Shown here piece by piece: positions 39,619 through 43,585 of a stretch of DNA of 64,000 nt. The position numbers were made by a program, and so were the translations under genes. Numbering within the stretch: position 1 is the stretch's first letter; each line of letters begins with the position of its first letter. This DNA comes from Flavobacteriales bacterium (GTDB taxonomy: Bacteria; Bacteroidota; Bacteroidia; Flavobacteriales_D; Sanyastnellaceae). The notes under the pieces were generated by a model. The model was not told where the DNA came from. It saw nothing but the letters and a program-made list of their open reading frames with translations, and did not search any database. The DNA is taken from NCBI GenBank assembly GCA_947448135.1, contig CANFLZ010000007.1, positions 1-64,000 on the forward strand, given 5' to 3'.

Positions 39619-39674
39619 ATGAATAGATGAACCAAAAGTTTTGAAATGATGTGAAATGCTTATACAATTGCAAT

Positions 39675-40805
39675 ATGAAAAAATGGTCCTTTCTTTTTTT
39701 GATGAGCACAAGCGTTGCAATTGCTCAGGTTGAATCAAAATCTAACGTTAAAGAAGAGTTTTTGTTTACGGTTGTGCAGAACAATGCCCATGGGCATGTA
39801 GAGGATCAATGTCAGACAGGAACGTGCTGGAGTTTTGCAACGGTTTCTTTTTTGGAAGCAGAGACCATGCGCATCAAAAAAGTAGACGTTGATTTATCTG
39901 AAATGGTGAATCCCCGTTACATGTACACCAAGAAGGTTGACTCTTATGTTCGTTTTCAAGGCAAACAACAATTGGGTCCCGGAGGTTTGAGCCATGACGC
40001 CATTCAGGTGATGCGAGAATATGGAGTGGTACCAGAGAGTGCCTACAGCGGATTTGTTTTAGGAGAAGAACGATACAACCACAATGTATTGGATGCGTAT
40101 TTAGAAGGATTGTCTAAACTCGTAATTGAGAAGAAGCTAAATGAATCGAACAACGATTGGAAAGTGGGCATAGAAGCCTTGTTGGATACTTACATCGGAA
40201 AATTACCGACTCAATTTGAGTACAACGGAAAGAAATTTACACCAGATTCATTTCGGAACGAATTGGGTCTGAACCCCAATGATTATGTGATGTTGACTTC
40301 TTTTGCGCATCATCCATTTTACAGTTCTTTTGTTTTGGAAGTTCCAGACAATTGGTCTAAAGGACAATATTATAATTTGCCTTTAAACGAATTTCAGTTG
40401 GTGGCGGACCATGCTCTGAAAAACGGATATACCATTGCATGGGATGCTGATGTAAGTGAGGCAGGATTTTCTTTTAGAAACAACATGGCCTTGTTACCAG
40501 TTGCCCCATTTAAAAAGGAGGAATTGTTTTCTCAAAAGCCCAATGAGATTCAAGTAACACAGGAAAGTAGACAAGCGGATTTTGATTCATTTGAAACCAC
40601 TGACGATCATTTAATGCACATTGTTGGTACGAGTAAAGACCAGTGGGGGAATTTGTATTATTTGACCAAAAACTCTTGGGGTGAGAAGAATAGTGCAAAG
40701 GGATATCAACATGTTTCTCAATCTTATTTCAGAGGAAAAACAGTATGCATGGTGGTTCACAAGGATGCGCTGCCTATGGATATTCGTAAAAAGATGGGAA
40801 TATGA
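39675..40805 (+). CDS. Secreted C1-family (bleomycin hydrolase-like) cysteine peptidase
   Basis: A 376-aa papain-fold peptidase with signal peptide (MKKWSFLFLMSTSVAIAQ). Catalytic residues are visible: Cys in QTGTCWSFATVSFLEAE near residue 48, His in HLMHIVGTSKD near 315, and Asn in LTKNSWGEKN near 333. Length and the wide spacing between Cys and His are as in C1B bleomycin hydrolase/PepC. Those are usually cytosolic, so the exported form is notable; aminopeptidase activity is inferred. ATG 39675 is chosen over GTG 39651. The stop overlaps the mtgA start by four bases. Confidence 0.87.
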   Translation: MKKWSFLFLMSTSVAIAQVESKSNVKEEFLFTVVQNNAHGHVEDQCQTGTCWSFATVSFLEAETMRIKKVDVDLSEMVNPRYMYTKKVDSYVRFQGKQQLGPGGLSHDAIQVMREYGVVPESAYSGFVLGEERYNHNVLDAYLEGLSKLVIEKKLNESNNDWKVGIEALLDTYIGKLPTQFEYNGKKFTPDSFRNELGLNPNDYVMLTSFAHHPFYSSFVLEVPDNWSKGQYYNLPLNEFQLVADHALKNGYTIAWDADVSEAGFSFRNNMALLPVAPFKKEELFSQKPNEIQVTQESRQADFDSFETTDDHLMHIVGTSKDQWGNLYYLTKNSWGEKNSAKGYQHVSQSYFRGKTVCMVVHKDALPMDIRKKMGI

Positions 40806-41637: not shown

Positions 41638-41657
41638 TGCTTACAAGCTTGTAAGCA
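41638..41657. repeat. Perfect 20-bp palindrome upstream of the VWA gene pair
   Basis: TGCTTACAAG followed by its exact reverse complement CTTGTAAGCA. It starts two bases after the mtgA stop and ends 47 bp before the VWA gene ATG. No T tract follows, so it is a poor intrinsic terminator; an operator for a dimeric regulator is the alternative reading. Confidence 0.8.
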
Positions 41658-41704
41658 GAAAATATTGAATGATAAGGGCAGAGTTTTGCTCAAAATTATT
41701 CAAT

Positions 41705-42340
41705 ATGAAAACAACGCATTACTTATTTATTTTGGATCACAGCGGAAGCATGTCAAACTGTTGGTCTAGCACTATTGGAGCATTAAATGAGCAGATTAGT
41801 TCCATTCGCAACGCTCAAAAATTAAATCCAGAAGTTCCTATCAAGGCCAATCTGGTGGTATTTTCTAATGATGTTCAGTTTGAGTTTTTGAATGTTCCGG
41901 CGGCTCATTTGGAGGAAATAAACGCTCAACGAATACAACCGAGCGGAATGACTGCGATGCTTGATGGAATTGGTCAGGGAATCGCACGCATAGAGCATGT
42001 GATGGATGAGGGTGATGATGTCATATGTATTATCCTAACAGACGGGGAGGAAAATGTCAGTAAAGAATTTACATACCAACAGGTCGGTCACAAAATTGAG
42101 CAGTTGAAGAAAACCGAACGATGGACTTTTCTGATCATGGGTGCGGATTTTGATATTTTTGATATGGCAGATAAATTGAAAATAGATGCCGATCGACAAT
42201 TCAGATACAGCAAATCCCAAACGAATCAGGTGTTTCAAGAGGTTAATCATTCGATACAAGACTATATCCAAGCGAAAAGTGTGGGAAGCTTGAGGGATGT
42301 TTTTAAATTTGAAAAAGACGGGAAGCGTAAAAGACAATAA
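41705..42340 (+). CDS. Stand-alone von Willebrand factor A domain protein
   Basis: A 211-aa cytosolic VWA domain. The metal-ion-dependent adhesion site is intact: Asp11-His-Ser13-Gly-Ser15 (FILDHSGSMSN), Thr in PSGMTAMLDGIGQGI and Asp in IILTDGEENVSKEF. After about residue 170 a helical, basic tail ends KFEKDGKRKRQ. There is no signal peptide or membrane helix. ATG 41705 is preferred to an upstream ATG at 41669. The last base of the stop is the first base of the next gene, so the two are tightly coupled. Ligand and process are unknown. Confidence 0.85.
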   Translation: MKTTHYLFILDHSGSMSNCWSSTIGALNEQISSIRNAQKLNPEVPIKANLVVFSNDVQFEFLNVPAAHLEEINAQRIQPSGMTAMLDGIGQGIARIEHVMDEGDDVICIILTDGEENVSKEFTYQQVGHKIEQLKKTERWTFLIMGADFDIFDMADKLKIDADRQFRYSKSQTNQVFQEVNHSIQDYIQAKSVGSLRDVFKFEKDGKRKRQ

Positions 42341-43548
42341 TGATTAGAGCGCATTTGATACGAACGGCAGAAGTAGACGAGGAGTTATTTACTTCTGTCG
42401 TTCAGTATTTACAGCAATTTAAGGGTGAAGTAGAATTTGTAGGACACGCCGATATTTATGCCGTTTCGGGAAAGCCGCATCGTGTTATCAAAATGGATGA
42501 TGACGATTTTGATCAAGCGGATCCGAGAATGGATGAGGACTTTTCCATGATTCAAGAATCCAAGATTGAGTCTCAAAAGCTTGATTTTCCAGAGGTAAAT
42601 GCTTATCCATGGGAAAAGTTTTTTAATCTGATCAAAAAATTTAGACGAAAAAAGCGAACCCCAGCTCAGGAGAGTTTCCCTCAGGTAGTGCCCGCAAGTT
42701 CATCCCATCATGCTGTGAAGGACGAAGATCATGTATTTATATTGACATATCAATCCAACGTAGAAAAATGGTTTGTCGGCACAGAAATGCACAATGGAAA
42801 GAATCATTTCATTCACTTGTTGTATTGGCACCATTATCTGCTTTCTGAACCAATTTATCCAGTGGCTTATCATGTGATGTCTACCCTTTTGCGCAACCAG
42901 ACATTTGGGAATTTCAATGGTTATTTCCCCATTTATCATGAGCAGTCCAGAGGTTGTATGATGGATTTGTGTTTGGACAAAAAGGACATTATTTTGAAAA
43001 TGCGCACTGCTGATATTTGTCCCGATTGTATGCGTGCAATGCAGTCATTGGATGTAAATCAAAAGCTTTTGCGACAGACTTTGCAAGTATTTGATCACGT
43101 TCGCGCTCAGGTATTATTTCGCGAGAGATTTATTAACGCGCCAACTTTTTCTCATTTGATCATCGATGTTCAAAAAGGAGAATTGATATTTCCTGAAATG
43201 TCTGACTTGCGAATAAAATTAAATCCGTTGGAGATGACAGTTTACCTCTTTTTTATTCGCCATATGAATGGGGTTATCTTGTCTTATTTGCCGGATTATT
43301 TTGATGAGTTGTTATTGATTTATCAAGACATAGTTCCCCAATTGGACGGCGATGACGCCATTGCACGCATATCAGATTTGACCAATCCGCTCAGCAATTC
43401 AATCAGTGAAAAAATTTCACGGATTAAATCGAAACTAAAGAATATGTTGGGGGATGAAATTGCAGAAGAATATCTCATTTCGGGTCCTAATGGGGGAATA
43501 AAAAAGATTCGTATTTCCAGAGAATTGGTTCAAGAGAAATCGAATTAA
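42340..43548 (+). CDS. Unknown protein paired with the VWA protein; possible zinc-binding motif and winged-helix-like C-terminus
   Basis: A 402-aa cytosolic protein that I cannot assign. An acidic, low-complexity segment lies around residues 52-70, a basic RRKKR segment near 102-105. Cysteines 206, 211, 227 and 230 (GCMMDLC and DICPDCM) form a C-x4-C...C-x2-C arrangement that could bind a metal. Residues about 283-396, with RIKLNPLEMTVYLFFIRHMN, SNSISEKISRIKSKLKN and YLISGPNGGIKKIRI, look helical with a final beta hairpin, compatible with a winged-helix DNA-binding fold; that is inference. The overlap with the VWA gene implies a stoichiometric pair. Confidence 0.7.
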   Translation: MIRAHLIRTAEVDEELFTSVVQYLQQFKGEVEFVGHADIYAVSGKPHRVIKMDDDDFDQADPRMDEDFSMIQESKIESQKLDFPEVNAYPWEKFFNLIKKFRRKKRTPAQESFPQVVPASSSHHAVKDEDHVFILTYQSNVEKWFVGTEMHNGKNHFIHLLYWHHYLLSEPIYPVAYHVMSTLLRNQTFGNFNGYFPIYHEQSRGCMMDLCLDKKDIILKMRTADICPDCMRAMQSLDVNQKLLRQTLQVFDHVRAQVLFRERFINAPTFSHLIIDVQKGELIFPEMSDLRIKLNPLEMTVYLFFIRHMNGVILSYLPDYFDELLLIYQDIVPQLDGDDAIARISDLTNPLSNSISEKISRIKSKLKNMLGDEIAEEYLISGPNGGIKKIRISRELVQEKSN

Positions 43549-43573
43549 TACCATACGTTTTATTTTCATCGAG

Positions 43574-43581
43574 TATCTTTG
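43574..43581 (+). promoter_or_regulatory. -7 promoter element of purK
   Basis: TATCTTTG, four bases before the purK ATG, so the message would have almost no leader. Confidence 0.5.
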
Positions 43582-43585
43582 TGCT

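Follow-up and report, generated by a model that had tools for sequence, protein, structure and literature searches.

Among the genes of the window (the whole 64,000-nucleotide stretch of Flavobacteriales DNA analysed here), two tightly coupled ones raise an intriguing question: what is the role of a small VWA protein whose gene runs into that of a partner, here named PAR, and do the two really belong together? A first-pass annotation had proposed a two-component unit between mtgA and purK. It had the two reading frames right (Table 1), as well as the single base that they have in common, the A of a TAATG junction in which the VWA stop meets the PAR start, and the neighbours are those it had named, the purK-like frame on its sequence alone. 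Both products appear cytosolic, as judged by eye. The analysis described below suggests that VWA-PAR is an undescribed kind of bacterial regulator, which appears to regulate its own expression and that of a few further genes.

Table 1. Features of the VWA-PAR locus, with positions in the window
Feature	Position	Strand	Description
mtgA	5' of the pair		
Proposed operator	41638..41657	.	perfect 20-bp palindrome TGCTTACAAGCTTGTAAGCA
Operator core, 14 bp	41641-41654	.	TTACAAGCTTGTAA
Predicted -7 element GAGTTTTG	41681..41688	+	TTTG at 41685-41688; 30 bp after the 14-bp core
VWA gene	41705..42340	+	211 aa; ATG 41705, stop TAA 42338-42340
PAR gene (partner)	42340..43548	+	402 aa; ATG 42340, stop 43548
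PAR residues 1-240	42340..43059	+	archaemetzincin-like (M54) domain without HExxH; from hhalign and family matches
Probable zinc site H200-x5-C206-x4-C211-x15-C227-x2-C230	42937..43029	+	conserved residues
PAR residues 273-402	43156..43545	+	putative OmpR/ToxR-type winged-helix domain; AF2 model, pLDDT 62.7
purK-like ORF	3' of the pair		named from sequence

Some features of the surroundings deserve mention. A gene for a C1-family peptidase (39651-40805; Peptidase_C1_2, 1.1e-19) overlaps mtgA by four bases and is retained upstream of the pair across the genus. On the other side, only 37 bp (43549-43585) separate PAR from purK; in four loci of the same genus (L018, L019, L020, L030) an opposite-strand gene of about 383-423 aa lies between them.

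Pairing and co-inheritance

VWA and PAR adjoin in 34 loci from 19 genera, in differing contexts: 32 listed pairs, the window itself, and one locus (L085) that had been filtered out and was restored by hand. Before pairs were counted, PAR rows were excluded if their E exceeded 1e-15 or if they did not cover the zinc site; besides L085, this removed L086 (unpaired), fragments of split genes in L076 and L093, and L187, which is paired and has its PAR cut by the contig end. Within the genus the pair lies between mtgA and purK, and elsewhere it has other surroundings; the two genes are divergent in L023, and outside the class, in L204, PAR precedes VWA. When the neighbours in the fetched loci were clustered, and the cluster members named by eye from their sequences, the only genes recurring beyond groups of local synteny were PAR, VWA and DUF6717; a kinase, PP2C or AAA+ ATPase was not among the recognised common neighbours. 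The VWA and PAR trees (27 pairs) have most clades in common, and their distance correlation of r 0.66 was reached in none of 2000 permutations, the highest of which gave 0.37. Adjacency on this scale, together with the congruent trees, upholds the proposal of a genuine unit with a dedicated partner. Two findings had been named as telling against it, homologues that occur independently with no conserved linkage and a partner belonging to a housekeeping family; both were looked for, and neither occurred.

PAR and this VWA subfamily are each present in single copy in the window's own genome. Matches to PAR were found in 15 of 60 relatives, in 31 of 395 genomes of the class and in 15 of 345 of the phylum (each tally counts the own genome, and those for class and phylum include proteins with just one PAR domain), and VWA matches in 66 of the 395 class genomes. 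Seventy viral loci have VWA without PAR, none of them containing PAR or DUF6717, and a search of viral contigs for PAR found none. Since this VWA subfamily also occurs alone, in class genomes and in viral loci, PAR seems to depend on VWA more than the reverse. Ten PAR rows are unpaired. Five of them have at most 255 bases of upstream contig (L026, L028, L072, L074, L079), and the others are L067 (with 820 bases of it), L083, L093, the second PAR of L027, and L205, in which PAR and VWA seem to be parted by a transposase-like insertion. Two or more PAR relatives are without VWA, among them L083 and the second copy in L027.

The VWA protein matches Pfam VWA at 8e-6 (26.6 bits vs a cut-off of 23.8) and PHROG 7371 at 1.4e-35. 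Its MIDAS, read as intact in the first pass, is indeed complete (D11-x-S13-x-S15, T83, D113) and does not vary in any of the 11 homologues aligned.

A conserved palindrome and promoter upstream of VWA

The first-pass annotation mentioned metal-dependent switches and conflict systems as possible settings for such a pair. The more direct evidence on function, absent from that annotation, lies upstream of the pair, where a conserved operator and promoter point to a transcriptional regulator. The exact sequence TTRCAAGSTTGYAA occurs at one place in the window's own genome. Within the genus, the exact 14-mer is found at one place each in five genomes (G000-G004) and at two in G005, where the second marks another copy of this locus (L252); G006 has a diverged form. 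Across the phylum, the core pattern RCAASSTTGY lies within 260 bp 5' of VWA in 36 of 38 loci, a set that includes three contig-end VWA genes without visible PAR (L173, L179, L252) and omits L075, where the contig does not reach the start of VWA; VWA starts were assigned manually. In the two loci outside this distance, the palindrome leads a longer operon and has TTTG at 32 (L085), or stands before the insertion already mentioned, without TTTG (L205). The palindrome persists in L204 despite the reversed gene order.

TTTG follows the core by 29-32 bp in 33 of 37 sites, whereas random 260-bp windows from the same loci, true sites included, hold core plus TTTG in at most 83 of 20,000. The -7 consensus of Bacteroidota, as given in the available parts of two papers, is TANNTTTG (PMC6847099, PMC12632263). 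Position -11 is A in 32 of 32 scored sites and -12 is T in only 4 of them, the total being 32 and not 33 because the L020 slice ended earlier. The start of transcription would be near 41693. Such a promoter fits a VWA start at 41705, and its position is the reason for preferring this codon to a second in-frame ATG upstream, at 41669. The palindrome core would then span about -53 to -40, with its centre near -46.5, 5' of the -33 region. We regard the evidence for the pairing, the operator and the spacing as strong.

The palindrome is absent at the loci of the unpaired PAR relatives L028 and L086, and it was not found within 220 bp 5' of ten VWA genes without PAR (L165-L170, L171, L172, L174, L177). 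Two other VWA genes without an adjacent PAR (L176:7006 and L178:1714) have a comparable palindrome in front, followed at 32 bp by TTTG; in their lineage, genomes can hold PAR elsewhere (G442, L073), and these genes are possible targets in trans.

A role as terminator was rejected for the palindrome, there being no T-run after it and a constant distance to the -7 element. LexA-like control was likewise dismissed, as the Bacteroidota motifs listed in the available part of one study (GGA-N5-TCC, CTAA-N5-TTAG and TTAC-AAATT-GTAA; PMC8565304) differ from it. One-mismatch sites in contigs C68 and C35 of the own genome are inside ORFs and were dropped. The window also has a second dyad around the -7 element (41663-41705), TATTGAAT ... 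ATTCAATA, which is not evident in the genus alignment.

The two domains of PAR

That the partner matches no named family, as the first pass had it, held throughout: Pfam, NCBIfam and PADLOC gave no family, the best PHROG match was only E 0.03, and 32 full-length relatives, scanned singly, had no common family. Family and structure searches by PAR sequence or profile gave no useful lead, weak matches such as BUD31, PNPase and uteroglobin being taken as chance. The partner is nevertheless not beyond naming, contrary to the same annotation, as it resembles an archaemetzincin-like domain without the catalytic motif followed by an OmpR/ToxR-type winged helix. We hold these two domain assignments with moderate confidence.

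In the alignment of the 32 full-length relatives, H200, G205, C206, D209, K220, C227 and C230 are invariant, and C211 is kept in about 90%. The four cysteines described earlier as C-x4-C / C-x2-C (C206, C211, C227, C230) are thus present, while the incomplete conservation of C211 means that the C-x4-C half is not strict; with H200 they form a probable, predicted zinc site. The same domain in another protein (L213) matches PF07998 at 6.7e-4 and NF033823 at 4.1e-6, both below the curated cut-offs. Profiles of PAR-type domains were then compared by hhalign with 11 archaemetzincins, against 148 column-shuffled controls. The PAR family alone gave a weak result (prob 4%, score 23.5, shuffled maximum 21.9), all 44 domains of PAR and related proteins a score of 28.4 (shuffled maximum 20.6), and the nine non-PAR copies a prob of 68% and a score of 38.9 (shuffled maximum 18.9). 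The alignments cover up to 157 columns, and the H-x5-C and C-x2-C register agrees. The catalytic HExxHxxGxxHC of M54 is not found, as HExxH occurs in 0 of the 44 PAR and PAR-like domains; all 11 archaemetzincins have it, having been selected by that motif. Because the profile and the His-Cys register match but HExxH is absent from all 44 domains, residues 1-240 may be read as a dead archaemetzincin, an assignment that for PAR alone is thin and goes through intermediates. That this domain is instead an archaemetzincin with zinc-protease activity, as its profile resemblance to M54 might suggest, is extremely improbable given the lack of HExxH in every copy, a motif present in the 11 archaemetzincins chosen by it.

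Proteins of other architectures also contain this N-terminal domain, joined to TIR (L091, L212), to a TIR of the CAP12/Pycsar type (L092), to an Mrr-type nuclease (L213), or to hydrophobic segments at the C-terminus (L207, L208, L209, L211) that by eye resemble membrane spans. It may be a sensor domain of defence proteins that has yet to be named.

For the C-terminal domain, which has no Pfam match by sequence, the winged-helix character suspected in the first pass is supported by the predicted fold. In VIA-align, 35 rows are listed for the model, and the top 30 are DNA-binding domains of the OmpR/PhoB/CadC/ToxR type or regulators that contain one, the best Z being 6.2 over 98-99 residues at 3.0-3.4 A; Foldseek is weak (best E 0.31) with the same fold type on top. 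The model, which has an extra helix, looks like a putative DNA-binding domain of the OmpR/ToxR type. A model of full-length PAR, made from two sequences, was poor (pLDDT 42.6), and its Foldseek list, mostly of unrelated matches, was left unused.

The C-terminal ~130 residues recur in L087, L088, L089, L090 and L214. In L214 they stand behind a CARF domain (RtcR 1.8e-10, Csm6 6.2e-14), of which Pfam RtcR is over its cut-off and the others are below, or partial to, curated full-length cut-offs. No CARF family is among the 25 families listed for the 32 PARs at E up to 1.

Other genes behind the same operator-promoter

The operator-promoter also serves a divergent DUF6717 gene in L022 and L062 and a downstream one in L077, and in L085 it heads an operon DUF6717-DUF6717-deacetylase-VWA-PAR. 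In L070 it is divergent to a histone-deacetylase-family gene, with L068 arranged alike; at the site of L063 the divergent gene, of doubtful relevance, is for a TPR protein. Unlinked sites precede a DUF6717 gene (L256) and a gene for GGACT, gamma-glutamylamine cyclotransferase (L257). Two diverged PAR relatives without an adjacent VWA (L027:4009-5579 and L028:2187-3799) adjoin GGACT genes. DUF6717 is rare (12 of 395 genomes), and it occurs in 8 of 31 genomes with PAR vs 4 of 364 without (p 2.3e-7). The DUF6717 gene of the own genome (L185:3056-6556, contig C60) has no such palindrome; it adjoins an ADP-ribosylglycohydrolase and a WYL regulator.

Genome-wide, the operator-promoter pattern gave 110 matches vs 85 for reversed-pattern controls in 33 genomes with PAR, a small excess, and 63 vs 59 in 33 genomes without it. 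Fifteen of the 110 were examined in context as further sites, and a clear target appeared in only two, most lying inside genes. This small excess and the intragenic sites count against a large regulon. From the genes found behind the operator, the output seems to be a limited group of hydrolases and helper proteins; our guess is that the hydrolases hint at the reversal of acyl or gamma-glutamyl modifications.

A proposed mechanism and its alternatives

The pairing, the co-inheritance, the operator with its fixed promoter spacing, its presence at other genes and the domain resemblances were all computed; from them we infer that PAR binds the site and activates rather than represses, as well as the role of VWA, the signal and the purpose. 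VWA-PAR is probably an autoregulated unit, with PAR as a transcription factor, likely activating, that has a zincin-derived receptor domain and VWA as partner. PAR would act as a one-component-like factor, the N-terminal two thirds being a catalytically dead, archaemetzincin-like domain that receives the signal around a structural zinc site, and the C-terminal winged helix binding the palindrome as a dimer. Activators sit upstream of -33, and a site centred near -46.5, just 5' of that region, makes PAR most likely an activator of its own promoter. The VWA protein, co-transcribed with PAR, would probably use its Mg2+-MIDAS to bind PAR or the sensed ligand and so set the state of PAR. In various genomes, the same operator-promoter would also drive the genes for DUF6717, deacetylase-like proteins and gamma-glutamylamine cyclotransferase.

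The same elements could be arranged for repression, with PAR on the palindrome blocking RNA polymerase until it is released by a signal that its zincin-like domain reads together with VWA. Such gene pairs often repress themselves, and there is one dedicated site, at the promoter. However, the 14-bp core is 5' of the -33 region and not over the promoter, the pattern at -12 and -11 is that of a weak promoter needing help, and relatives of OmpR, ToxR and CadC are mostly activators, so that we find repression rather unlikely. It is less probable still that an unlinked regulator binds the palindrome and that PAR and VWA are mere targets, for instance a stress or phage-defence sensor. The fusions of the zincin-like domain to TIR, Mrr-type nuclease and membrane-like segments do follow a pattern of defence proteins, and a similar operator does precede some VWA genes without adjacent PAR; yet PAR has a predicted winged helix of its own, genomes without PAR have no clear excess of sites (63 vs 59), and the unpaired PARs of L028 and L086 have no site.

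A different reading starts from VWA and likens the pair to TerY-P systems, as a switch working by metal or phosphorylation, or sees in it a chaperone module of the MoxR-VWA type minus its third partner. A small TerY-like VWA with a perfect MIDAS and the 70 viral loci with VWA relatives and no PAR would suit it, but with no kinase, PP2C or AAA+ ATPase recognised by eye as a common neighbour in the fetched loci, we consider it very unlikely.

Going beyond the activator reading, we would tentatively suggest that the archaemetzincin-derived, zinc-held receptor is a new class of bacterial sensor domain with several outputs, namely effectors of the TIR, restriction-nuclease or membrane type in defence proteins and the winged helix in PAR, where PAR and VWA would turn on a limited regulon of hydrolases that undo modifications (deacetylase, gamma-glutamylamine cyclotransferase, DUF6717). 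It would then be a modular plug-in, by analogy with CARF or SAVED domains. If these proposals are true, VWA-PAR represents a new family of Bacteroidota regulators whose operator is already known, so that binding is directly testable, and what the pair senses becomes a direct experimental question. DUF6717, absent from the open PMC papers listed in the search, would gain its first functional links, and a dead protease fold would have been reused as a receptor both in gene regulation and in probable defence proteins.

Relation to known systems

With domains of the OmpR/ToxR/CadC type, PAR has in common the best alignment of its C-terminal model and an activator-like operator position. It differs in the lack of a Pfam match and of a receiver domain, in the extra modelled helix, and in a site that is one short palindrome, whereas operators of that type usually consist of direct repeats. 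Its likeness to archaemetzincins (M54) comprises the H-x5-C ... C-x2-C register and the region before it, and unlike them PAR lacks HExxH and has an additional, putative DNA-binding domain at the C-terminus.

Every part thus has a known relative, and the layout, a sensing domain followed by a winged helix, recalls the CARF-wHTH regulators (Csa3 and its relatives; RtcR), as described in the accessible part of PMC4012209. The L214 protein, in which the PAR-type C-terminal domain stands behind CARF, links the two. The archaemetzincin-like N-terminus, the co-inherited VWA partner and the palindromic operator of its own set PAR apart. Among the matches listed for open PMC papers, none describes the VWA-PAR pair, its motif, DUF6717 or a link between archaemetzincin and TIR, nor was the combination of zincin-like receptor, VWA partnership and dedicated operator found there.

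The VWA protein, small, stand-alone and with an intact MIDAS, resembles that of the TerY-P triad of VWA, PP2C and kinase, as far as the available part of PMC11090510 describes it; here, by contrast, neither PP2C nor a kinase was recognised among the neighbours that recur in the clustering, and the partner is a putative transcription factor. The MoxR-vWA ternary systems are also alike in having a VWA with a dedicated partner, and the excerpted text of PMC7159879 proposes peptide capture by VWA; they differ in their AAA+ ATPase, which was not recognised among the recurring neighbours when the fetched loci were clustered.

A possible variant of the pair is seen in L089 (5663-7558) and L090 (3618-5534), where a VWA gene is convergent with one for a protein having only the C-terminal domain of PAR; in L089, a class-II glutamine amidotransferase gene adjoins the two.
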